NCBI RefSeq assembly: GCF_001507545.1
Contig: NZ_LQBP01000002.1
Location: 186,001 to 250,000, forward strand
Length of the DNA stretch: 64,000 nucleotides
Direction: 5' to 3'
Source: Ruegeria profundi
GTDB lineage: Bacteria; Pseudomonadota; Alphaproteobacteria; Rhodobacterales; Rhodobacteraceae
Positions 3 through 15,155 of this stretch are shown one piece after another. The first letter of the stretch is position 1; every line of letters starts with the position of its first letter. A program made the translations under genes and the position numbers. Below the pieces are notes generated by a model that saw nothing but the letters and a program-made list of their open reading frames with translations, ran no database searches and had not been told where the DNA came from.

Positions 3-989
3 GCCGCGCAAAAGCTGAATGTGCGCTATGTCGCTCGTGGCAGCGTGCGCCGTTCGGCCAGTCGCATCCGAATCACCGCAGAACTGGTCGATGCCAGCAC
101 TGAGCGGACGATCTGGGGCGAACGGTTTGACCGCAAAATTGACGATATTTTTGATATTTTGGACGAGGTGACGGAATGCATAGTTGCCGCAACTGCAGTG
201 ATGATCGAGTCACATGAAAAGCAACGGATGATCCAGTCGGCTCCATCCGACCTTGAGGCATATGGCTCTGTCCTTCAGGGTCAACACCACATTTTCAAAT
301 ACACAAGAAACGATAACCGAAAGGCGCAGGATTTCTACAAAAACGCGCTTGAACGAGATGAAGGTTATGCGCGCGCTGCAGCCGCTCTGTCACGCACGCT
401 GAACATCGATTGGCGCTATTCCTGGACCGAGGACCCCTCGGACGCCCTCAACCAAGCCTTGACCTTTGCACAACGTGCGATCGAACTCGATCCGACCGAT
501 GCACGTGGTTTTGGAGAGTTGGGCTATGTGCACCTTTACCGCAAGGAACATGACGCCGCGATTCAATCGTACCAGCGGGCTTTGGCGTTGAACCCGAATG
601 ACGCGGACATGCATTCGGACTTTGCTGATGCTTTGGCGCATTCCGGAGACAACGAAACGGCGATCACGCATATCCAGCAGGCGATGCGCCTGAACCCGTA
701 TTTCCCTGACCAGTACCTGTGGCATCTGGGCGGTGCGTATTACAATTTGCGCCGGTACGAAGACGTGATTGAAACCGTCAACAAAATGAACAACCCGACC
801 GAAGGTCAGCGGATGTTGGCTGCCAGTTACGCGCAGCTTGGTCAAACAGAGCTGGCCCGGCAGATCGCAGAGAAACACCGGGCTGTGCACCCCAATTTCT
901 CGCTCAAACGGTGGGGTTCGGTTCTGCCCGACCGGCTCGAGGAAGACACCCAGCACTTTGTCGAAGGTTTGAAAAAGGCCGGATTCTGA
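3..989 (+). CDS. C-terminal part of adenylate/guanylate cyclase-type TPR protein (5' partial)
   Basis: The frame is open from the first bases of the window, so the true start lies upstream and only about 328 C-terminal residues are visible. The first 55 or so carry the block RYVARGSVRR, RITAELVDAST, IWGERFDR, DDIFDILDEV. In alphaproteobacteria this block follows the catalytic domain of class III cyclases or the DNA-binding domain of related HTH-TPR regulators. Roughly residues 105-270 hold tetratricopeptide units, clearest at AIELDP, ALALNP and AMRLNP, which normally mediate protein contacts. The catalytic or DNA-binding domain is outside the window, so cyclase identity is a family inference. 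The gene converges on the minus-strand operon ending at 1050, and a bidirectional terminator lies between them. Confidence 0.8.
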   Translation, partial: AAQKLNVRYVARGSVRRSASRIRITAELVDASTERTIWGERFDRKIDDIFDILDEVTECIVAATAVMIESHEKQRMIQSAPSDLEAYGSVLQGQHHIFKYTRNDNRKAQDFYKNALERDEGYARAAAALSRTLNIDWRYSWTEDPSDALNQALTFAQRAIELDPTDARGFGELGYVHLYRKEHDAAIQSYQRALALNPNDADMHSDFADALAHSGDNETAITHIQQAMRLNPYFPDQYLWHLGGAYYNLRRYEDVIETVNKMNNPTEGQRMLAASYAQLGQTELARQIAEKHRAVHPNFSLKRWGSVLPDRLEEDTQHFVEGLKKAGF

Positions 990-1049: not shown

Positions 1050-1661
1050 TCAATCGCCACCGCGCGCCTTGGCACCGCTGACTTTTGCGCCGCTTACCTT
1101 AGCGCCACTGACTTTTGCACCGGAAACTTTTGCTCCGCTCACCTTGGCGCCCGAAACCTTGGCTCCGCTGATCGCCGGGCTATCGAAACCGAAATAGATA
1201 TCCAGCAAGACTTGCTCGAACTGACCGGTCATAACGTCCATACGCATTGTCTGGTCGGCTTTGTCATACCGCCATACCCTGATGTCGTCGGCCATTTGAT
1301 AATCCGCTGCTGCCACGCCGCCCAAGCCGGGCTCTTGCGGCGCTCGGGAGGCGTGATTGGGCGGTTCATTCGTTTTGGCGACTTCTTCTCCGATGCCATG
1401 CACCATAAAAATCACGGGCTCAGGCAAATCGTAGTAAGTGCCCTCAAACGCGAATCCGTAAATCTTTGCAAATCGAGGCTTATCATTACCCTGAACCGCA
1501 AACTGCTTATCCAAATGTTTGTTATCGCCCTTACCGCCTTTTGGAACGCGGTTGTAAGTCAAGTCTGATAGCTCACGTCCGTAAATCAGCACTTCAGAAA
1601 AACTGAGTAATGTCTCTGCCATAAACTCATCTCCCATCTGCGGGTTCAGCAGTTTGGTCAC
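1050..1661 (-). CDS. hypothetical protein with seven C-terminal SGAK(V) repeats; last gene of the ycaO-tfuA operon
   Basis: I do not recognise the first 160 or so of its 203 residues: a soluble-looking domain (for example FSEVLIYGRELSDL near the N-terminus, VIFMVHGIG in the middle) with no signal peptide or membrane segment. Residues 165-198 are seven perfect SGAK units, six followed by V, ending ARGGD. The register resembles pentapeptide repeats of the A(N/D)LSG type with K and V at the usual N and L positions. The GTG start at 1661 is chosen because a G-rich Shine-Dalgarno (GAGGGGGG) lies four bases upstream and the protease gene starts in nearly the same context; ATG at 1622 is the main alternative. 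It lies on the ycaO strand, about 107 bases after the protease gene. It could be the substrate of YcaO-TfuA, with the repeats as modified core, or a pentapeptide-repeat accessory protein. Both are inference. Confidence 0.75.
   Translation of the reverse strand: MTKLLNPQMGDEFMAETLLSFSEVLIYGRELSDLTYNRVPKGGKGDNKHLDKQFAVQGNDKPRFAKIYGFAFEGTYYDLPEPVIFMVHGIGEEVAKTNEPPNHASRAPQEPGLGGVAAADYQMADDIRVWRYDKADQTMRMDVMTGQFEQVLLDIYFGFDSPAISGAKVSGAKVSGAKVSGAKVSGAKVSGAKVSGAKARGGD
1068..1169 (-). repeat. seven tandem 15-base units encoding SGAK(V)
   Basis: Seven consecutive 15-base units encode S-G-A-K, followed by V in six and A in the last. The DNA units differ synonymously: valine uses GTT, GTG, GTC and GTA, and serine uses AGC, AGT, TCG and TCC. 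Perfect peptide identity with scrambled codons indicates selection on the peptide rather than recent slippage. Confidence 0.9.
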
Positions 1662-1768: not shown

Positions 1769-3064
1769 TCAGTCGGGCACTTGCGTTCGGACCGAATTCG
1801 AATGGCTGTCCTCATTGGGGTCGGGCAGGCGCGGACCTGCCGTTGTCAGGCCGATATCGCGCATACGGAAGTTACCTTCGATAATGCGGCGAAAAGCGCC
1901 TCCTGTGACCTCCTGATCCACGGCAAGCAAAGCCTTTTCAACCCCGAAATAGCTGAGCATATCCGCGTCCAGCATTTCCCACGCATCTGCCAGATACGAC
2001 CCAAGGAAATCGCGCGCTTCAAGCAGCGCAATGCGGAATCCTTCAGGATTTTCGGCATAACGCTTGTCAAAAATGCCCTGCATGACGCGGCTGTAATCAG
2101 GCGAGCCTTCAAGCTGATCCGACAGGTCTTCTTCCTCGGCGGTGATCAGACCGTGCACCAGTAGCCGTTCGTGATAAATGTCGACAAACACATCGAACAT
2201 CGCGCCGGTCAAGGGCTCAGAGAGGTCATGCTCGCTGGACCATCCGGCGGCAAAATCCGAAAGTGGGCGATCATTGGCCGCAATGCGTATTTGGGCATTG
2301 TCTGAAAGCTCGGCAAATCGGCTAAGGCGATTGAACGTGTAGAGGTTCCCTCGCGTGTTTTCCAGCAGGGCGTCAATCACCGATCCGAAATGCAAAGACG
2401 CAAGCAGCGCCACCAGATCTGCTGCGGATTCATGAAACCCATAATATTCGCCCCCGGCATCTCCGTCTGTTGGCATCCCGATCACGCTGTAAACTATGGC
2501 GTGGCCGATCTCATGCGCGACGACATCGAAGTTCAGGCTATACGGTCGGTATTCGTTGCCGTGCTCATGTGTTCCCCCGGTTTCCAAAAACCCCCAACCG
2601 ATATGAGCGTTGTCGAGGCTGGGCAGAAGCGACAGTTCAAGACGGTCGAAGTCACGGGCGAAATGCCATGGGATCGGGCGGTCAAAATATCCCTGCCAGA
2701 CATCCATCGTGAAATGCGCAGAGCCAAACAGATGCGCGGCCTCAAAGGCGGGGTCTGTCGGGTCGATATGGATAAAATTACCGAACTCATCCGGCATGGC
2801 GGGGGGCTGGATATAGCCATCCCAAGGCGGCAGATACATTCCCGGGCCACCCGGTCCCGGCACGATCGCGCCATAGGGTGTCGATTTGCCAACGGGGTTG
2901 ACCGTGTACATTCGCGGCCCCGATGGCCCCGGCCCGATACTGCCCTGTGGTGCCGAGATTTCGACCAATTCCAACGGGGCATCCGGTTCCAAAAAGGGCG
3001 ATTGCGGGTAAAGCAAGAACCGGGTTCCGGGTTCTTCCTGTTCGATTTGTTCGGGGTTAGTCAC
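1769..3064 (-). CDS. HEXXH zinc metalloprotease-like protein (gluzincin type) in the ycaO-tfuA operon
   Basis: A 431-residue protein with a zincin site: VVAHEIGHAIV places HEIGH at residues 184-188, and GFHESAADL supplies a likely third ligand at E212, the gluzincin arrangement seen in thermolysin-like (M4) peptidases. No signal peptide or thermolysin propeptide is visible, so it may act in the cytoplasm. The N-terminal region is rich in Gly and Pro and contains a 13-residue motif twice (residues 41-53 and 65-77, pattern G-x-I-x-PGP-x-GP-x-MY). The GTG start at 3064 is preceded by GGGAGGG and gives MTNPEQ. It begins 41 bases after tfuA and precedes the SGAKV-repeat gene on the same strand. 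In a RiPP-like system it could cleave a leader; alternatively it may itself be the modified protein. Its substrate is unknown. Confidence 0.85.
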   Translation of the reverse strand: MTNPEQIEQEEPGTRFLLYPQSPFLEPDAPLELVEISAPQGSIGPGPSGPRMYTVNPVGKSTPYGAIVPGPGGPGMYLPPWDGYIQPPAMPDEFGNFIHIDPTDPAFEAAHLFGSAHFTMDVWQGYFDRPIPWHFARDFDRLELSLLPSLDNAHIGWGFLETGGTHEHGNEYRPYSLNFDVVAHEIGHAIVYSVIGMPTDGDAGGEYYGFHESAADLVALLASLHFGSVIDALLENTRGNLYTFNRLSRFAELSDNAQIRIAANDRPLSDFAAGWSSEHDLSEPLTGAMFDVFVDIYHERLLVHGLITAEEEDLSDQLEGSPDYSRVMQGIFDKRYAENPEGFRIALLEARDFLGSYLADAWEMLDADMLSYFGVEKALLAVDQEVTGGAFRRIIEGNFRMRDIGLTTAGPRLPDPNEDSHSNSVRTQVPD

Positions 3065-3105: not shown

Positions 3106-4416
3106 TTATTCTGCGGCTCCGGCATCGACACCTTTGTTAGAATACAAAAACTCTGCTTCTATCAGTTCAAACAAGGCGTCGCGCCCAGCCAAACCGAGCG
3201 CTTGCGCGTATGCGTCCAAATCATCGGGCACTTCTTGGTCAAGACGATATTCAAAGTACCACATCAGCGCACGAAGACGATCCACCCCCGGCGACCCAAT
3301 CGGACGTACTGAGCCTTGCTTGCTGGCGGCACGATCCCGCAAGTTTGAGTATTGGCCTGTCCGGCGTAACTCTGACAAGAGTTGCTTCTCGAGTTGACCC
3401 GTTCGCGACGCGACAGCGGCCTCGACCCGCGCGGTGTCGGCAAGCATCTCCTCATAGCTTTCGGGGTTCAGGTCGTTTGCCTTGATCCAGCCCATCAGAT
3501 CTGATCGCCGCGACAGACCTGTATCCGCTCTGTGATCGGTCATCAACCGGACCAAATCGTCGCGCGTCGGAGTATATTGGCACCTAGCCGCATCCTCGCG
3601 CGCAAGCACAGCCAGGGCCGCGCGATCCCGGTATCGGGCGTACAGCTCGGGGTTTAGTCGCAACTCGTCAATTACCGATTGGTCAGAGTCCGGCTCACCG
3701 GCATCCACCCGTGCACGCAACTCTTTCCACATCAGTGTTGGTTCGGTGCGCGTTGGTTTTGGAAGGGGCAGGGGGGAGGTACTCAGATGGTCGGCCATTC
3801 GCGTCAACATTGCACGGGCATCCTCGGCCTTGGCGTCGATACGACCAGTAGGCAACCAATCACGGAATTCCGCCACGCCCGGCAAGTCCTTTACCATTGC
3901 GATAATCTCGGCCCAGATACGCTGGCGGTACTGTATCGTTTTGGCTGTGCGCAATATCTCTGCGGCCGTATTAGCTGGCAATAGCCCCGACACTTGCGCC
4001 TGTGCCACCGTCGCACGGATCGATACCATCGGTTCGCTAAGCGGCTGGAATCCCAGCTCGGCGGGGCTGTGCAATACCGCGACCTCGTCATCATCCTGTA
4101 GAACGCCGGTGTGGTAATCTTCGAAGATGCGCCCAACTCCGATCATCCCGAAATCGGCCAGTTCAGCGGCGCGCAGGGCACCCATGCTGGCGCTGCCAAA
4201 AACAGGTATTTCTTGCTCTATGGCCCATAGAATTTCCTTGTGCCAAACCGATGGGACGCCTTCGAAATACCCGTCTATGATCCCAATGGCGGACGGGTTT
4301 TGCTGAGCTATGCGGTACACATCACCCTGCCGGACGGGTGGCAGAATAGTCGCGTCCAGATGGCCTGCTACAGTTTCGGGCGAAAGTGTTGGGCCCACGA
4401 AAACCACAGCAGTCAT
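3106..4416 (-). CDS. tfuA: TfuA domain protein, YcaO partner
   Basis: A TfuA-family protein of 436 residues. The N-terminal third has the family pattern: VVFVGPTLS at the start, PPVRQGDVY near residues 26-34, GIIDGYFEGVPSVWHKEI near 45-62 and PVFGSASMGALRAAEL near 71-86. The remaining 250 or so residues are a helical extension, as in the long proteobacterial TfuA proteins. TfuA was first named from trifolitoxin production in Rhizobium. In archaea TfuA works with YcaO to install thioglycine in methyl-coenzyme M reductase, probably supplying sulfur, and in other bacteria YcaO-TfuA pairs make thioamidated peptides. Its ATG overlaps the ycaO stop by four bases (ATGA), so the two are translationally coupled. 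The target here is not known. Confidence 0.93.
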   Translation of the reverse strand: MTAVVFVGPTLSPETVAGHLDATILPPVRQGDVYRIAQQNPSAIGIIDGYFEGVPSVWHKEILWAIEQEIPVFGSASMGALRAAELADFGMIGVGRIFEDYHTGVLQDDDEVAVLHSPAELGFQPLSEPMVSIRATVAQAQVSGLLPANTAAEILRTAKTIQYRQRIWAEIIAMVKDLPGVAEFRDWLPTGRIDAKAEDARAMLTRMADHLSTSPLPLPKPTRTEPTLMWKELRARVDAGEPDSDQSVIDELRLNPELYARYRDRAALAVLAREDAARCQYTPTRDDLVRLMTDHRADTGLSRRSDLMGWIKANDLNPESYEEMLADTARVEAAVASRTGQLEKQLLSELRRTGQYSNLRDRAASKQGSVRPIGSPGVDRLRALMWYFEYRLDQEVPDDLDAYAQALGLAGRDALFELIEAEFLYSNKGVDAGAAE

Positions 4417-5618
4417 GCCAGACCTTCCAGAATACGCAGCGCCCGCGGGCCGGGGACATAGTCCGGATCATCATGCGGTGCCTCAAGCCCGGGAATAACG
4501 GCCCGGACCACGGCGACGTCGTATTCCGGGCGCGATAGATCAACTGTCACAACTTGCGAAAGATTCGCTGAGGAAAGGCGCTCCAGTATCAGACCCAGGT
4601 CACTTTCAAAGGTCTCGGTCACGTGCGATGGGCAATCGCGAAAGTTTTGATCAGCTTGGGTGCTTTCAATCAGATCACGGACATAACGGCCCCGTTCCAT
4701 TTTGGCCTGATCAGTGAATTCTTTGGGGTCGAGATCGTCCCGCGCGCCCGAGATATAGGTGAGCCGCGTCTGCGCTGCCTCCGTCAAGGCCCGTAGCAAG
4801 GCGATGGCCCGATCCGGGTGGCAACCATCCCCGATGCCAATATGGCCGAATTGTCCACCGCCCTCGCAAATCACGCAGCGAAAGCTGGCGATGCTGATAT
4901 CCGATGTCGTGTTCCAAAGCCCAATCTCCAACCCGGCTGCGGCCATCATTTCCATGGCCTTTTGGCAACGCGGATCATCAACGCTCGCCGGATCAAGACG
5001 CGATTGTTCCGCGCGATGATGCCAGAGCGTTGTCGCATCCCGTTCGATCAGTTCACAGATGGCATGGCAGCTAGCCTCAGTCAGGTTGTTCCCCGAGGCC
5101 AATCCGTTGGTCGTGCGGGGGAAGGCCGACTGACCGCCAACCGGAGCGCTGGTATAGTCGGTATCGACCATTTCAAGCGGAACCCAGCACGCCGACCCTG
5201 CGCACAGATCGTGCCCCTGTACCCACAACATATTGGCATGCGGATCAAACTGCCGACCTGTCACACGCGGCAGTCCTGCTACGTCAACTACGGTCGTATC
5301 CTCGGAAAGCTCGGCATATCTGGCGAGGCGCTGCGGTAGCCGTACGCGTTCTGCATGCCACGACTCGATTGCCTCCATCACGCCCGAGGCTTCAGCGGCG
5401 CGCAGGGACAGGCCCTTACCCAAAGAAACCGCAACCGACCGGGAATTGGGTCGGGCGACCATCACCGTCGGTAATCCGATCCGATCCAGACCGGTCAGAT
5501 TGGCAATACGTGTGATGCCCATTTCCTTCAGAAACGGTTTTACGATTTCCAATGTCTGCTCGGGATCGCGCAACCGATGCGTGTCCAGCACGTATTGCTT
5601 TTGCGATCCATCGGGCAT
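4413..5618 (-). CDS. ycaO: YcaO domain ATP-dependent cyclodehydratase/thioamidation enzyme
   Basis: A 401-residue stand-alone YcaO protein. It has the ATP- and Mg-binding signatures: S78-GVM-E82-AI-E85 with E90 downstream, NGLASGNNLTEA followed by ICELIERD (residues 171-194), and GDGCHPDRAIALLRAL with EAAQTR (263-285). YcaO enzymes phosphorylate a backbone amide to let a nucleophile attack: Cys, Ser or Thr side chains give azolines, and sulfide gives thioamides. The adjacent TfuA and the absence of an E1-like or ocin-ThiF partner point to thioamide formation. The C-terminus lacks the PxPxP tail of azoline-forming YcaOs. The start at 5618 has only a modest ribosome site (AAGG). It is the first gene of the operon, so its promoter should lie in 5619-6106. 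Confidence 0.93.
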   Translation of the reverse strand: MPDGSQKQYVLDTHRLRDPEQTLEIVKPFLKEMGITRIANLTGLDRIGLPTVMVARPNSRSVAVSLGKGLSLRAAEASGVMEAIESWHAERVRLPQRLARYAELSEDTTVVDVAGLPRVTGRQFDPHANMLWVQGHDLCAGSACWVPLEMVDTDYTSAPVGGQSAFPRTTNGLASGNNLTEASCHAICELIERDATTLWHHRAEQSRLDPASVDDPRCQKAMEMMAAAGLEIGLWNTTSDISIASFRCVICEGGGQFGHIGIGDGCHPDRAIALLRALTEAAQTRLTYISGARDDLDPKEFTDQAKMERGRYVRDLIESTQADQNFRDCPSHVTETFESDLGLILERLSSANLSQVVTVDLSRPEYDVAVVRAVIPGLEAPHDDPDYVPGPRALRILEGLA

Positions 5619-6106: not shown

Positions 6107-7045
6107 CTAATGAAACTGAGTATCTCCTGCATTGTTGGACACAGTCGTCCCTTTTTCTCCATTCACCGCCGCGGGCACATCGGCCAACGAACAGATGATG
6201 GCGCGGCCTCCGGTAGCCCTTGCAAAATCTTGTGCCGCCTGAACCTTTGGACCCATGGAACCTGCCGGGAAATCAAATGCGTCAAGTGCATCAGGCGTGA
6301 TGGATTTGATGCCTTTTTGATCAGGTGTCCCCCAATCCAGATAAACCGCGTCAGTATCTGTGGCGATGACAAAAAAGTCGGCTTTGAGGTTTTGGGCAAG
6401 CAGGCAAGATGCAAAATCCTTGTCTATAACGGCTTCGACACCCACCAGTTTTCGTTCACCACCTTTTTCGTACATCGTCGGAATCCCACCACCACCGGCG
6501 GCAATCACCGTCGCACCTTTTTCCAGGATCCAGCGGATCGGTTCGATTTGAAAAATGCGTTTCGGTTTTGGTGAAGGCACCACACGGCGCCAGTAGTCTC
6601 CGTCCGGCTTTACGGTCCAGCCTTTTTCGGCTGCTTCTTTCTTGGCTTCGGCTTCGGAATAAACCTGGCCAATAAACTTGGTCGGGTTGTCAAAGGCAGG
6701 ATCGTCCGGGTCGACCTCGATCATTGTCAGCAAAGTGGCAATATGATGCTCGAATGGCAGGATGTTGCCCAGTTCCTGTTCGACCATGTAACCGATCATA
6801 CCCATCGTTTCACCGACAAGCACGTCAAGCGGGTATTCCTTGATATCAGTATACATGATTTCCTGAAGGGCCAGCATCCCGACCTGCGGCCCGTTCCCGT
6901 GGGTGATGACGGTCTCATGCGCTTCGCATAGGGGGGCAAGGGCCTGGGCGGCAATCCTAGCGTTCTTGCGCTGATTGTCCGCTGTCATTTCCTCACCCCG
7001 CTTGAGAAGCGCGTTGCCGCCCAGTGCTACAACAACGCGTCCCAT
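6107..7045 (-). CDS. arcC: carbamate kinase
   Basis: A cytoplasmic amino-acid-kinase-fold enzyme that makes ATP from carbamoyl phosphate and ADP, the energy-yielding last step of the arginine deiminase pathway. The 312-residue length is normal for the family. Family motifs are [10 protein letters not shown] at the start, [11 protein letters not shown] near residue 49 and [11 protein letters not shown] near 180. It is the last gene of the arc operon, three bases after arcB, with ATG at 7045. Context (arcA, arcB and two carriers upstream) makes the catabolic role firm. Confidence 0.97.
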
Positions 7046-7048
7046 GGA

Positions 7049-8047
7049 TCAGGCTCCAAGTGTGGCGACAAGGATCGCCTTGATGGTATGCATCCGATTT
7101 TCAGCTTGTTCAAAGGCTATGTTCATGTCGCTTTCAAAAACCTCCTCGGTCACTTCCATTTCCGAGATGCCGAATTGCTCATGGATGTCCTGACCCACCT
7201 TCGTCTCAAGGTTATGGAATGCAGGCAGGCAATGCATGAACTTGACGTTGGGGTTGCCGGACTTTTTCATCAGATCCATATTGACCTGATACGGGCTCAG
7301 CAATTTGATGCGCTCGGCCCAGACTTCTTTAGCTTCACCCATCGACACCCAGACATCAGTGTGGATGAAATCCGCGCCCTCAACCGCCGACGTGTCGTCG
7401 GTGATGGTTACGCGTGCTCCGGATTTTTCGGCTCTCTTCATCGCCAGTTCACGCACATCATCATGGGGCTGTGTTTCCTTCGGCGAAATCATGCGAACAT
7501 CACACCCCATCAACGCGCCCAGCATCAGCAACGAGTTGCCCATGTTAGAGCGGCAATCACCGGAATAGGCGTAGACGATATCCTTGCGTGGTTTATCCGC
7601 GTGCTCGATCATGGTCAGCATGTCGGCCAGCATCTGCGTCGGATGCCAATCATCGGTCAAGCCATTATACACGGGTACGCCAGAGTATTCAGAAAGCTCC
7701 TCGACCATTTTCTGTCCAGCACCGCGGAACTCGATCCCGTCGAACATGCGTCCAAGCACACGGGCTGTATCCTTCATGGATTCCTTGTGGCCGATCTGCG
7801 ACCCCGACGGATCAAGATATGTAATGTTCGCGCCTTGGTCATAGGCAGCTACCTCGAAAGCACACCGGGTACGGGTCGAGGTTTTCTCGAATATCAGGCA
7901 GATGTTCTTACCGTTCAACGACGGCTGTTCGGCTCGGGCGTATTTCGCGCGTTTCAGGTCGCGGGCCAAATCCAGAAGGTACAACATTTCACGTTGGCTG
8001 AAGTCCGCGATTTTCAAATAGCTGCGGCCCTTTAGATTGAATGCCAT
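7049..8047 (-). CDS. arcB: ornithine carbamoyltransferase (catabolic)
   Basis: Splits citrulline with phosphate into ornithine and carbamoyl phosphate in the arginine deiminase pathway. Signature motifs are [15 protein letters not shown] (carbamoyl phosphate binding), [12 protein letters not shown] and FMHCLPAFH (catalytic Cys and ornithine site). The frame stays open to 8140, but ATG at 8047 ([10 protein letters not shown]) is preceded by AGGGAG and gives 332 residues, the family length. The same chemistry run backwards is anabolic ArgF; the position between arcA and arcC argues for the catabolic enzyme. Confidence 0.95.
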
Positions 8048-8100
8048 TTTATTTCTCCCTATCGAAAAAGGTGACGCACAAACTGGCGCCGAATTGAAAT

Positions 8101-9327
8101 TCAATACGCCGGGTCGCGGTCGATCGGGCAGGTCATGCAATGCCCCCCACCCCGGCCACGGCCCAATTCTTGACCCGAGATCTCGATCACCTCGATACCC
8201 GCATCCCGCATCTTGCCGTTCGTAAACGTGTTGCGCGCATAGCCCACGACAACGCCGGGTGACAAAGCAACGACATTATTGCCATCGTCCCACTGTTCGC
8301 GTTCGGCCTGAAACTCGTTGCCGCCGGTTGAAATCACTTCGAGCGAATTCAGGCCCAGAGCCTCTTTGTAAACGTCGAACAAATGACCCTTTTCGACACG
8401 GATATCCAAGTCTCCACGCTCTCCGGGCCGGATCGAAATGCAGGTGATCTGATCCGCAACTTCCGAAAATGCAGTTACCTTGTCGTGGTCCAAGCAGGTA
8501 AATACCGTGTCCAGATGCATGGCGGCCCGGCTTTTTGGCATGGCACATGCAACAACACGCTGTGCCCCGCCTTTTTCGAACAGAGATTTGGAAACCTGAG
8601 CAACCGCCTGCCGGGTCGTGCGTTCCCCCATGCCGATGAACACGGTGCCATTACCAACGGGCTGAACATCGCCGCCTTCGACCGAGGCATGGGCAAAATC
8701 TTCGTCGCTGTCGCCCCACCAGATTTCAAAGTCGGCTTCCTTGAACATCGGGTGGAACTTGTAAACCGCGCGCATGATCAGCGTTTCCGGCTTGCGAGCT
8801 GGCCAGAACATCGGGTTCGTGGTCACGCCGTTGAATATCCAGCAGGACGGGTCACGCTGGAACTGCGCATTCGGGATCGCAGGCAGGATGAAATCGCCTA
8901 GCGAGATAAGGTCTTTGAATTGCTCGTCAATCATGCCCTGCGGTAGGTCCGCGAAGATGATGCCGCCCAGCATATGCCTGGCCAGCAGCTTGGCATCCAT
9001 CTCGTTTAGCCAGGCACGCATCTCGGTAGAAAAGCCCAATCCTACCATGTTGGGGGTAACCAAACGATCCAAAAGAAAAGCGCGTGCGGCTGGATCTTTC
9101 GCGATGGCCTGAGCCAACAGATCCTGAATGTCGTAAACTTCGACCCCGCGTTCGCGCATCAACGAGCAGAACTCGGCATGGTCCTTTCGGGCCTGTTCGA
9201 CCCAGATGACGTCATCGAACAACAGCTCTTCGCAGTTGCGTGGTGTCAGGCGGTCATGCGCAAGGGATGGGCGTGAAACGATCACCTTGTTGAGCTTTCC
9301 GATCTCGGAATGAACGCCGAGTTTCAT
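8101..9327 (-). CDS. arcA: arginine deiminase
   Basis: Hydrolyses arginine to citrulline and ammonia, the first step of the pathway. The 408-residue protein shows the guanidino-modifying-enzyme active site: EGGDV with its acidic residues, the catalytic histidine in MHLDTVFT, and the nucleophilic cysteine in [13 protein letters not shown] close to the C-terminus. The start [12 protein letters not shown] is typical. It begins two bases after the APC transporter gene (stop at 9330) and is separated from arcB by 53 bases, so the order is yfcC-like, APC antiporter, arcA, arcB, arcC. All active-site residues I can see are intact. Confidence 0.97.
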
Positions 9328-9329
9328 GG

Positions 9330-10703
9330 CTACTCTCCTTTTGAAACTGAATTTTTCTGCATGTCTTCCAAACTTTTGGCATGGCTCCAGCGAACCCAGA
9401 CGTGGATAGGGACGCCCGCAAGAAGAAGGACCGAGCCCAGTAAAACAGTTTCAGCACCGGACCCGATGAACGCCCAAACCGAGTAGATGAACCCAAGCCC
9501 GCCCAGTACGACGACTTTTGCCAACTCCGGGCCGCGCAGAAGTTCCCCGCCATTGAGACGGATCATGATTTCGGCAACCGCGCAAATGGCATAGGGAAGA
9601 AGGCTGGCAACTACGGCCAGCAAGATGACAAAGTTGAAAGCCGCGACCAGACCCTGCGCAAAGTTCAGGATAATCAGTATGGATGCCAGCACATTCGACA
9701 GGATCAATGCGTTGGCCGGGGTGCCGAATTTGGATTTTTGACCCAAGGCAGCAGGAAAAACACGATCCAATGCCGCGCCATATGGGACCTGCCCGCTGAG
9801 AAGTGTAAAGCCGTTAAGGGTGCCAAAGGTCGAAATCACTGCGCCACAGGCTACGAGGATGCCGCCGAGCGTTCCAAACATCACCTCGCCGACCGCAGCC
9901 AGCGGTGCTGCCGAAACGCCCAGGGTTTCCGCTGGAAGGACCCCCATCGAAACGGCCGTAACGGATATATACACACATGCGGCAATGATGACGCCGATGA
10001 CGGTGGCGCGTGGAATGGTTTTTTCGGGCTCAATCACATCGCCGGACGGTACGGTCGCGGACTCGAGCCCCAGATATGCCCAGAGAGTTAACGCCGCAGC
10101 TGCCGATATCGCAGAAACTGCAGTTGTCCCGCTCTGGTTGACCGGCAAGTAGTTTTCGGGATTGATCCAAAAGATGCCCAGCGTACCAATCAGGATAAGC
10201 GGTACAAGCTTGAGCACGGTGGTTACAATCTGAACCAGGCCGGCCTCCTCGACCCCACGAATGTTGATCAAAGTCAGTGACCAGATAGCGACCAATGCCG
10301 TTGCGAGTCCGTACATCGGAACTTCGGCGATGATCGGAAACAAGAACCCTAGGTATCCCACCAAAGCCACTGCGACAGCGGCATTTCCGGTCCATAGCGC
10401 GATCCAATATCCCCACGCGATGATGAAGCCCGCAAAGTCGCCAAAGGCTTCCTGAGAGTATGCGTAGGGACCGCCCGGTTTGGAGACGACACGCGACAAT
10501 CGGCCAAAGATGATTGCCAGAACCAGTGCCCCTGCCGAGGTCAGAATCCACCCGCCTATCGCAATTGGACCAAAAGGCGCGAGAGATGCCGGAAGCAGGA
10601 AAACTCCGGACCCGATCATGTTTCCCACCACCAGCGCGATGCAAGCCGTCAGCCCGAGTGCTCCGGAGGTTGAAGTCGTTTCTGGGAGGGGGCGATCGGT
10701 CAT
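9330..10703 (-). CDS. APC-family amino acid antiporter, probably arginine/ornithine exchange
   Basis: A 457-residue inner-membrane protein with about twelve hydrophobic helices. [17 protein letters not shown] near residue 26 is the substrate-binding unwound helix of AdiC/PotE-type basic amino acid antiporters, and [12 protein letters not shown] follows near residue 76. Position immediately before arcA suggests exchange of external arginine for internal ornithine, the job done by ArcD in other bacteria. Substrate is inferred from context; agmatine, putrescine or citrulline transport cannot be excluded. It starts ten bases after the yfcC-like gene ends. Confidence 0.9.
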
Positions 10704-12687: not shown

Positions 12688-14535
12688 TCAATTTACCGGA
12701 GGAGGACACGTCCAAACGCCAATCGGCACGTGCCGTCCGCGTAGCATGTGTTCACCGGTGTTCCGCATCCCAGCATTGACAGCCCAAGACCGAGTTTCCG
12801 GATTGGCCTCAACAAGCGCATTGGAAAGTGCTATTGCCGCCTTTTGGGATTTTGCAAAGTCTTGCAGGCGGCTGGCTGTATTGACGACATCGCCGCTCAC
12901 GGTCACTTGCCTGTGACGTCTGCCACCGACAACCCCGGCTTTGACGGGTCCGCTATGTCCACCTACGCGCAACCCCAGTCCAGGCCACTTGGGGCTGGCA
13001 CGAACAGCGGCGTATAAGGCATCAATAAATCGCAACGCCTGTATCGCATCGTTTGGTTGGGGGTCTGGCAGCCCAAACACGACCATGGCTCCGTCGCCGG
13101 CAAAATACGCGATAATCCCGCCCAAAGAGTCTACGGCCTGTTCGACAAGTTCGTGAAAGACGCGCAAAAATTCAGCTGTTCCTTCTGGTCCGAGGCTTTC
13201 TGAATGCGCGGTAAAGCCCTCGACATCGACGAACAGGACAACAGCGGGTCGTGCCGTCGCCTCGAAACGGGGCTCGGACGTACTGGCAAGCCGTTCAACA
13301 ATCAAAGGCGATTGGTACAAAGCCAGATTGGCGGCCCGTCGCCGGTGCTGCAATAGCCGGAGCCCGCCACCGCAACCGACGCCAAGAAAAAGGGAAAGAA
13401 AAACCGTGGTCGCATCCAGCCACCACCCGGCATTGAATGCGGCTTGCAAGACGATCATGATCGCCAAGGCCAGGGAACCGGTTGCCACGACCACAAACCA
13501 CGGTCGGTCCATCCCTGCGGTAATGAAGCCAAGAACAGCTGCGGTAAGCGCCAAAGCGATATCCATCATCCACGAGGTAGCATCGCGGCGCAGAAAGCTT
13601 TGTTCGATAATATTTGCTGCCAGCGTCGCATGCAGCTCTGCTCCGGGAAAAGCTGAATCGAAGGGCGTCGCGTGCCTGTCCCCGAACCCGGTCGCTGATG
13701 CACCAAGAAACACCACCTTGCCGTCCAGCTCTGCCTCGTTGACAGCCGCGACTGAAAAGGTCGGTATCGTGCCTGCCTTGCCGTAATACACCAAGGGAAT
13801 TGCGCCTTGTCTGTCCAGTTGAACGAAAGTGTCACCGACAGACAAAAGCCCGCCAGTGCGGAACGTTCGCAGTTGCAAGCCCGATTGATCAGCCGCTTTT
13901 GCGACGGCTGCAACTGCAAGTGAAGGGTGCCAAGAAGTGCCCTTTTCAGTCAGAAATGGTGTTGCGGCGTCAATTCTGCGCACTGAGCCATCGGACTCAT
14001 GCTGTATGATCACGTGCCCCAGTGTTGTTTCGCTGCGCAAGGTCTCTGCCGGCACCAGCGCGGGTAATGGATTACGATAAGCCGAATTTACAAGTACACT
14101 GAAATCGCCACCATCGAGATCTTGCAAGGGCGTTCCCGAATTTGCTTCGGCAACAGCCAGTATCGTATCGGTTTCCGACAAAACTCTGGCAAGATCCTCG
14201 TCGCCCTCACGTGGTTCCACCAACAGGAAATCCAAGGCAATCACCTTCGCTCCGGCTTCGGATATATCTGAAATTGCCGCTGCCAGCGCTGTGCGCGTTG
14301 GTGGAAACTTGCCAAGTTGAGAAACCGCCAGGTCGTCAAACGTAACTATGGCGACAGTCGGCGGGGATTTCGTTTCCCCGCGCCAAATAAACCGAGCGTC
14401 GAGCAAGCGCCCTTCTATCCCCTGCCAGAACGCGTTCCGATCACCCGGATGCCAAAGGGCAAGGGCCAAGCTCAACAGCGTCACAAATGCGCCGACAATG
14501 CGCCTTTCGAACGAAAACTTGTCGCGCCCTACCAA
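12688..14535 (-). CDS. CHASE2 sensor adenylate/guanylate cyclase
   Basis: A 615-residue membrane-bound class III nucleotide cyclase. After one N-terminal helix comes an extracytoplasmic CHASE2 sensor (roughly residues 40-310; FDSAFPGAELHATLAANI is characteristic), then three membrane helices (about 320-400) and a cytoplasmic cyclase domain. The two metal-binding aspartates are in FVDVEGFTAHSES and YFAGDGAMVVFG, and VSGDVVNTASRLQ supplies the transition-state Asn and Arg. It makes cAMP, or less likely cGMP. Its start overlaps the end of the FecR-domain gene by seven bases, so the two are co-translated. The natural signal is unknown; the pairing suggests FecR and CHASE2 work together in the periplasm. 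Confidence 0.93.
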   Translation of the reverse strand: MVGRDKFSFERRIVGAFVTLLSLALALWHPGDRNAFWQGIEGRLLDARFIWRGETKSPPTVAIVTFDDLAVSQLGKFPPTRTALAAAISDISEAGAKVIALDFLLVEPREGDEDLARVLSETDTILAVAEANSGTPLQDLDGGDFSVLVNSAYRNPLPALVPAETLRSETTLGHVIIQHESDGSVRRIDAATPFLTEKGTSWHPSLAVAAVAKAADQSGLQLRTFRTGGLLSVGDTFVQLDRQGAIPLVYYGKAGTIPTFSVAAVNEAELDGKVVFLGASATGFGDRHATPFDSAFPGAELHATLAANIIEQSFLRRDATSWMMDIALALTAAVLGFITAGMDRPWFVVVATGSLALAIMIVLQAAFNAGWWLDATTVFLSLFLGVGCGGGLRLLQHRRRAANLALYQSPLIVERLASTSEPRFEATARPAVVLFVDVEGFTAHSESLGPEGTAEFLRVFHELVEQAVDSLGGIIAYFAGDGAMVVFGLPDPQPNDAIQALRFIDALYAAVRASPKWPGLGLRVGGHSGPVKAGVVGGRRHRQVTVSGDVVNTASRLQDFAKSQKAAIALSNALVEANPETRSWAVNAGMRNTGEHMLRGRHVPIGVWTCPPPVN

Positions 14536-15155
14536 TCCGAGCCAAGCAAAGCATCAAACTGATCGATGCGCGCCTGCCCCCAAGCTGTGACATTTCCCAT
14601 CGTACCAGACGGCGCCACATCTATCCCTTCGCCCGGGTCAAGTCGCTTGTTTTCCCCATTAGCGAAGACAAAGACGATACCTTCGCGCGCAAAAACTGCA
14701 CTCGCTCGGTCCTTCACCTGCATAGCCCACTCCGTAGAGCGCACGGCCGCGACTGCCGAGGGCGTGCGTACCTGCACTCCGTTTCCGGCATCGCTGGAGA
14801 ACAGAAAGCCAGCAATACCGTCGATTAAGCGTAGGCCAAATGGTCGCGATCCCCCCGATAAAAGGCCAAACACTTCTACTTCGCTATCAGGGCCCAAAAC
14901 AACCTTTAGACCGCCGGAACAGCTCATTGTTATACGCGCACCGGCCTCGGTGCGTAGTATTGCGTTTCGCCCCAATCCCAGCCCGACAGATGCAGGGCGC
15001 GCATTTGCACCTCGGTCCGATACCTCTGTTATGCCGTCGACATGCTGCACGACACAAACACGTGGGTCTGGCGCGACAGTCTGCGCAACGACAGGAACCG
15101 CGCTCCCAATCGAAACTGCCACAAGAATGGTGGACAACAGGCTACGAGTTTGCAT
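14529..15155 (-). CDS. periplasmic FecR domain protein
   Basis: A 208-residue exported protein. Residues 1-25 form a signal peptide ending near VVAQ. The rest fits a FecR domain: VCVVQHVDGITEVSD, NAILRTEAGARITM, GLKVVLGPDSEVEVF and VRTPSAVAAVRSTEWAM, the last being the usual core. Stand-alone FecR-domain proteins without the anti-sigma helix occur beside CHASE2 cyclases in many proteobacteria and probably act as the periplasmic half of the sensor. It is the first gene of a two-gene unit with the cyclase. There is no ECF sigma factor or TonB receptor nearby, so classic iron-citrate signalling is unlikely. Confidence 0.9.
   Translation of the reverse strand: MQTRSLLSTILVAVSIGSAVPVVAQTVAPDPRVCVVQHVDGITEVSDRGANARPASVGLGLGRNAILRTEAGARITMSCSGGLKVVLGPDSEVEVFGLLSGGSRPFGLRLIDGIAGFLFSSDAGNGVQVRTPSAVAAVRSTEWAMQVKDRASAVFAREGIVFVFANGENKRLDPGEGIDVAPSGTMGNVTAWGQARIDQFDALLGSDW

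Follow-up and report, generated by a model that had tools for sequence, protein, structure and literature searches.

Among described pathways, thiovarsolin biosynthesis in Streptomyces varsoviensis (varA, varY, varT) is the closest known system to the locus analysed here. The sections of the report on which we draw describe a YcaO protein and a TfuA protein that act on a precursor of repeated cores, and state that the repeating precursor, YcaO and TfuA suffice for formation of a thioamidated tripeptide (PMC6511847). As of 2021, according to the portion of a second source used here, all known TfuA-YcaO thioamidated RiPPs came from Actinobacteria, and over a thousand proteobacterial TfuA-YcaO clusters had no known product (PMC8120280). 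The same portion describes precursor searches in TfuA clusters with RiPPER and reports Nif11-like precursors in the clusters of several genera, Ruegeria included (PMC8120280). The default RiPPER precursor window, as given in the thiovarsolin sections, is 20–120 residues (PMC6511847); such a window would miss the array-bearing proteins described below, which are about 159–313 residues long (chosen starts; partly masked L056 left out). YcaO substrates need not be small peptides, since E. coli YcaO, in the part of the source drawn on here, thioamidates a ribosomal protein (PMC13063428).

The locus described here lies in a 64,000-nucleotide stretch of Ruegeria profundi DNA (hereafter the window). 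Like the thiovarsolin pathway, as described in these sections, it combines YcaO, TfuA and a repeated-core precursor whose copy number varies between relatives (PMC6511847). The core of thiovarsolin is APR or GPR in the same sections (PMC6511847), whereas the units here are Gly-centred; the window array is built of SGAKV, and neither APR nor GPR occurs in it. Moreover, the thiovarsolin cluster, as far as these sections go, has seven genes, no named protease and a precursor found with the 20–120-residue window (PMC6511847). The system in the window differs in its putative folded leader of ~140 residues, thermolysin-fold protease, cyclase, frequent GNAT acetyltransferase and lineage-specific unit lengths.

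The closest solved relatives of both enzymes belong to the McrA glycine-thioamidation pair of methanogens (MJ1094/TfuA), and the target here may likewise be Gly. The best structure match of the window YcaO is MJ1094 (6pe3, E 3e–38), which we take to be a YcaO of the thioglycine-making kind; the alignment runs through motifs that presumably form the MJ1094 nucleotide site. TfuA matches 6xp8 best (E 4e–31). However, the substrate of the McrA pair is one Gly of an enzyme, and the window proteins, whose best NCBIfam matches are the glycine-thioamidation models TIGR03266 (227.4 bits versus 365) and NF033432 (198.3 versus 235.2), fall below both equivalog cut-offs. A class III cyclase beside a peptide-modification system recalls TOMM and other peptide-modification clusters, but the cyclase scores far below the TOMM models (50–52 bits versus 400 for TIGR04510 and, in L019 only, 44 versus 706 for TIGR03903).

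The repeat array and its operon

Seven tandem pentapeptide units, six SGAKV and a final SGAKA, are encoded on the minus strand at 1065–1169 of the window. They form the C-terminal end of a 190-residue protein, with RGGD after the last unit. The features of the locus are as follows (window coordinates).

1155–1169, 1140–1154, 1125–1139, 1110–1124, 1095–1109 and 1080–1094, minus strand: SGAKV units (sequence reading)
1065–1079, minus strand: seventh unit, SGAKA (sequence reading)
1050–1622, minus strand: repeat protein, putative precursor, 190 aa (stop codon 1050–1052; homologues known)
1203–1622, minus strand: N-terminal domain, residues 1–140, putative leader or scaffold (no Pfam family or PDB fold match found)
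1769–3064, minus strand: thermolysin/fungalysin-fold metallopeptidase-like protein (HEIGH, with His184, and E212SAAD216 motif intact)
3106–4416, minus strand: TfuA protein, PF07812, 155 bits (C-terminal extension of about 220 aa)
4413–5618, minus strand: YcaO protein, PF02624, 265 bits (closest solved relative MJ1094)
3–989, plus strand: C-terminal (TPR) part of a class III cyclase-TPR protein (whole gene L023:7140–8990, its start preceding the window)

An earlier note on this DNA had read seven perfect SGAK(V) units at 1068–1169. Six of them are indeed SGAKV, but the seventh is SGAK plus Ala, and the claimed span stops at its Lys. The scrambled codons that the note described were confirmed by codon reading: array Ser is encoded by AGC (four times), AGT, TCG and TCC, and Val by all four of GTT, GTG, GTC and GTA. 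Consistently with this scrambling, Tandem Repeats Finder detects the array at the DNA level with only 69–74% matches. Two tandem copies of any pentapeptide appeared in none of 3000 shuffles of the repeat protein. The start of the repeat protein was read as the ATG at 1622; GGGAGATG lies a short way upstream.

Transcription on the minus strand runs from YcaO through TfuA and the protease to the repeat gene, which closes the operon. The adjacent YcaO and TfuA reading frames overlap (4413–4416), and both proteins clear the Pfam curated cut-offs (265.1 bits versus 25.7 and 155 versus 30, respectively). The third operon protein is predicted to have a thermolysin/fungalysin fold: its model aligns with the M36 structure 7z6t (Z 26.3, rmsd 3.0 over 303 residues) and with M4 proteins (Z 21), and Foldseek matches this fold with E 1.4e–6. 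The sequence scores below the Pfam M4 cut-off (14.7 versus 22.4 bits), but the HExxH...ExxxD zinc motif is complete, with H184, E185, H188, E212 and D216 invariant in 32 sequences. The C-terminus of the protease (1769–1830) is a conserved low-confidence tail resembling SHAxSxRTxVP(I)D, which is kept in Rhizobium homologues (L020, L030). No dehydrogenase was found among the operon genes with Pfam.

On the other side of the array, the cyclase-TPR gene is transcribed towards it; the full-length protein matches cyclase and TPR-type Pfam families and no kinase. Ahead of the cyclase in the same genome, before the window, lies a GNAT acetyltransferase gene (L023:6306–7100); of 102 loci, a total that counts two duplicates, 69 contain a relative of it. 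GNAT is also the recurrent real gene among the listed matches of ORFs common to 15 diverse loci; most of the others are antisense shadows of core genes, and no exporter was seen among these matches.

Relatives of the locus and gene linkage

Searching 394 genomes of the family with the repeat protein gave 12 matches. On inspection, five hold a precursor with an array (the window's own included), one (G007) has the domain without repeats, and six cover the C-terminal stretch only. At class level, 5 of 385 genomes contain the N-terminal domain, and at phylum level 2 of 299, both of the latter already in the set; three narrower groups contained it in 1 of 39, 4 of 31 and 3 of 17 genomes (centre genome counted each time). 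TfuA and YcaO are present in all nine whole genomes with the domain that were tested, and five further genomes have both beside it. In G624, TfuA is adjacent to the N-domain gene and the only YcaO found sits on another contig.

A scan of genome contigs by protease alignment confirmed 231 places, the best 80 of which were kept as the locus set; these include Ruegeria, Leisingera, Roseovarius, Roseobacter, Labrenzia/Roseibium, Hoeflea, Nitratireductor, Afifella, Aurantimonas and others. Within these best 80 of 231, YcaO and TfuA occur in every locus (YcaO being cut by the contig end in some), which substantiates the suggested link of such arrays to YcaO genes. The cyclase is present in 70 of the 80, the N-domain gene stands beside YcaO/TfuA in 76, and 75 have an array of at least three pentads. 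Where the N-domain gene is not beside the enzymes, it lies elsewhere in three genomes and the contig ends in one. Two of the five loci without an array (L080, L083) are on contigs that end early. The other three (L073, L075, L078) belong to Leisingera-type genomes in which YcaO, TfuA and protease are separate from an intact precursor with seven SGAKV units.

Among plasmids, 51 records contain the N-terminal domain, 49 of them from Rhizobium. We examined seven Rhizobium records and one from Paracoccus. Six of these eight, all Rhizobium, carry the N-domain, a protease homologue, a cyclase and a seven-residue array, with neither TfuA nor YcaO on the plasmid; in these bacteria YcaO/TfuA are either located elsewhere or that branch does something else. 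Two of the six have broken frames, in the protease (L026:6617–7968) and in the precursor (L031:7761–8568). In Paracoccus denitrificans (L025) no protease homologue was found within the 16 kb fetched.

Many Ruegeria and Leisingera precursors contain an extra insert of ~90 residues near the N-terminus (L076:10453–11331, L045:10449–11336, L032:10448–11329), which the window precursor lacks. In L076 and L045 the insert matches the phage head-decoration family phrog_2647 (E 2e–7 and 6e–5), and in L032 it matches nothing. Its presence differs even in close relatives, such as L048 (191 aa) and L049 (281 aa), with proteases that are 98.6% identical.

Unit wording and peptide-level selection

Before counting, we dropped L018 and L019 (which duplicate the contigs of L076 and L093), L031 (broken frame), L083 (contig end) and the masked half of L056; the unlinked precursors L135–L137 stayed outside the tail counts. 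Comparison of 94 tails with shuffles yielded 90 arrays, with a period of five residues in 79 (two scored as 10), seven in 6, six in 3 and four in 2. Degenerate or missing repeats in homologues, which the earlier note had named as speaking against its reading, do occur, but in four of the 94 tails only (L022, L115, L128, L129), all with YcaO and TfuA adjacent. L128 is significant at period 2 owing to an Arg run and was excluded as an array. L022 (9478–10113) and L129 (1414–2115) represent a divergent repeat-less branch, with a common tail bearing HRGGxL and a divergent YcaO (31–34% identity).

The wording of the units was counted in 78 pentad arrays, with the window left out, by a pattern that presupposes Gly. 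Position 4 is K only in 43 arrays, R only in 28, both in 4 and neither in 3. Copy number ranges from 3 to 10, most commonly 7, so the expectation that it would vary while the unit is kept holds across these arrays. V predominates at position 5, where A, I, L, M, F and Y also occur, and the residues at position 3 are A, S, M and T. Individual lineages have units of their own: RGASV in Afifella, with S and R swapped (L086, L089), AGAMV/SGARF in Aurantimonas and xGMSV in P. denitrificans; the AGAKV, AGARV and AGAMV units lack Ser. Distant relatives have units of other periods, namely GMNV and GQNV (four residues), GAGQMV, DM(S/A)ARG and DLVGRS (six) and SRSGGxx (seven). Because the pentad pattern presupposes Gly, the prominence of this residue is judged from a separate count that presupposes none, which shows an invariant Gly column in 89 of 90 arrays and a Gly in 565 of 566 units. 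Ser and Ala come next, invariant in 78 and 76 of the 90 arrays, respectively. Ala closes the last full unit of 37 out of 79 arrays and is never the final residue of an inner unit.

The strong constraint on the peptide proposed in the earlier note is borne out by the codon changes. We counted 512 synonymous versus 52 non-synonymous changes in 25 disjoint nearest pairs; three pairs in which a K-type array faces an R-type one account for 25 of the 52. The low protease identity of some pairs in this comparison results from equal-length stretches being compared ungapped. Pairwise counts among Ruegeria-range loci are 585 versus 0 for 8 SGARV arrays and 3357 versus 169 for 19 SGAKV arrays. Codon identity within arrays is close to that of a random draw from the codons of the family (0.36 versus 0.33, average over 79 arrays, mean z 0.5), which argues against recent DNA-level duplication of units as the general cause of the repeats. 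Some local unit duplication occurs, with six arrays reaching z of at least 3.0 (L070, L082, L074, L086, L094, L077). Between orthologues, the values for array versus protease codons are 0.828 versus 0.780 in the closest pairs and 0.402 versus 0.443 at 91–94% protease identity. Array codons hence diverge roughly as fast as protease codons, so each unit has kept its place in descent, under selection at the peptide level.

Close Ruegeria can differ in K or R over the whole array: L034 is all R and L038 all K, with no mixed arrays in the clade. In a quick protease tree, K/R changes at least seven times, and the window K array is placed among R arrays in a clade of 24 without any mixed array. Recombination with another array would be our guess for a route by which all seven units switch together.

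Possible roles of the array

The reading that we favour, with somewhat better than even confidence, is that the repeat protein is a multi-unit RiPP-type precursor: YcaO/TfuA would thioamidate the Gly in every unit, and the protease might release the units. The YcaO-TfuA pair would thus have its substrate encoded in the same operon. The N-terminal ~140 residues would fold and serve as a leader or scaffold, and a disordered C-terminal array would present the same core unit over and over. With TfuA assisting in sulphur delivery, YcaO would swap the backbone oxygen for sulphur at a single Gly per unit, giving thioglycine and a poly-thioamide tail; the near-invariance of Gly, together with the likeness of the enzymes to MJ1094, 6xp8 and the NCBIfam models, suggests this site. 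The protease might then cut in front of the hydrophobic residue in the units, to yield several short thioamidated peptides (roughly V-S-thioG-A-K in the window), or else trim the tail. Thermolysin prefers a hydrophobic residue after the cut, and most units offer one, which makes release of one peptide per unit plausible. The cyclase-TPR protein probably controls production, the GNAT acetyltransferase found beside the cyclase in many relatives may cap the peptides, and the product is perhaps a signal or an antagonist. Several observations count against this explanation: the Ala at the end of the last unit in many arrays, the absence of an exporter from the matches listed, a weak AlphaFold2 model of the precursor (mean pLDDT 62), the four array-less tails, the YcaO of G624 on a separate contig, P. 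denitrificans without the protease within the fetched region, the Rhizobium plasmids, the likeness of the tail profile to designed pentapeptide-repeat proteins (see below) and the Nif11-like precursors reported from TfuA clusters (PMC8120280).

One could instead take the tail for a short right-handed beta-helix coil of the pentapeptide-repeat type, with A/V pointing inward and K/S outward and YcaO/TfuA acting on something else. The consensus of such proteins is A(D/N)LxG, for instance A-N-L-S-G, and the window register A-K-V-S-G (A-x-V-S-G, as in PF00805 proteins) fits it; a tail profile also matches designed pentapeptide-repeat proteins (E 4e–12). The residues found at positions 5 and 3, and the exchange of S and R in RGASV, likewise speak for a coil. 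Nevertheless, the array scores below the gathering cut-off of Pfam Pentapeptide (PF00805, 14.1 versus 20.2 bits), N/D is absent, and seven units are fewer than two coils of 20 residues. In the AlphaFold2 model, residues 147–190 have no structure and no strands, mostly at pLDDT < 50, which as a low-confidence model is not proof of disorder; the N-terminal domain is mostly at 65–85, with a weak stretch at 81–110. No known fold was matched to this domain (lowest Foldseek E 0.14; highest Z 3.5, with GroES-like proteins), which does not show that its fold is novel. Periods of four, six and seven residues in homologous tails would also not be expected of a pentapeptide coil. We therefore reject the coil as a general account and give it little credence as a rival. 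Between the two meanings considered in the earlier note, multi-core precursor and pentapeptide-repeat coil, the evidence backs the former, and the repeats are probably the chemically modified part.

A tail that remains unmodified and serves as a multivalent binding or anchoring arm, with one positive charge per unit in many lineages and another protein as the substrate of YcaO/TfuA, is rather unlikely. It would account for the six Rhizobium plasmids that keep the N-domain, protease homologue and repeat tail without the enzymes, for the K or R in most pentad units and for the lack of an exporter among the matches listed. However, uncharged units exist (GMNV, GQNV, GAGQMV), the near-invariant residue is Gly and not a charged one, and co-occurrence with YcaO/TfuA is complete in the best 80 of 231 loci and in the 14 whole genomes checked. 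Alternatively, YcaO might modify the array by azoline formation or another cyclodehydration at Ser, or by forming an amidine. Activation proceeds in the same way in the YcaO enzymes that make azole and amidine RiPPs, and Ser is invariant in most arrays, yet several units (GMNV, GQNV, GAGQMV, AGAKV, AGARV, AGAMV) have no Ser, no dehydrogenase was found in the operon with Pfam, and thioamide formation is what the partnership with TfuA and the nearest solved YcaO structure suggest. We consider such chemistry very unlikely.

A Nif11 precursor was also sought as the substrate; among ten Ruegeria-range genomes with the locus, a match was found in one (contig C32, 1743–1886) and none in the window's own genome.

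More tentatively than thioamidation of the units itself, we raise the possibility that these loci form a new RiPP-type class of Alphaproteobacteria, with a folded scaffold, an exchangeable lineage-specific array (unit length 4–7), thioamidated Gly, release by a thermolysin-fold protease and cyclic-nucleotide control. If so, whole-array K-to-R exchanges between close Ruegeria would be changes of signal or antagonist type, like pherotypes. Among the matches listed in open-licence PubMed Central we found no description of the repeat-protein family and no occurrence of the strings SGAKVSGAKV and SGARVSGARV. Members of the family are candidates for what orphan YcaO/TfuA pairs act on in marine and plant-associated Alphaproteobacteria, and the natural series of unit lengths in the family is useful for asking what YcaO/TfuA recognise.

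A role of the locus as a defence system was considered and set aside: of six proteins run through PADLOC, the cyclase alone gave a match, a weak one to Pycsar cyclase models. Beside the operon, at 6107–10703, lie frames that by resemblance we take to be carbamate kinase, ornithine carbamoyltransferase, arginine deiminase and an amino-acid antiporter. A second protein that is presumably class III cyclase-like is encoded at 12688–15155; its N-terminal region is large, and it adjoins a FecR-like protein.
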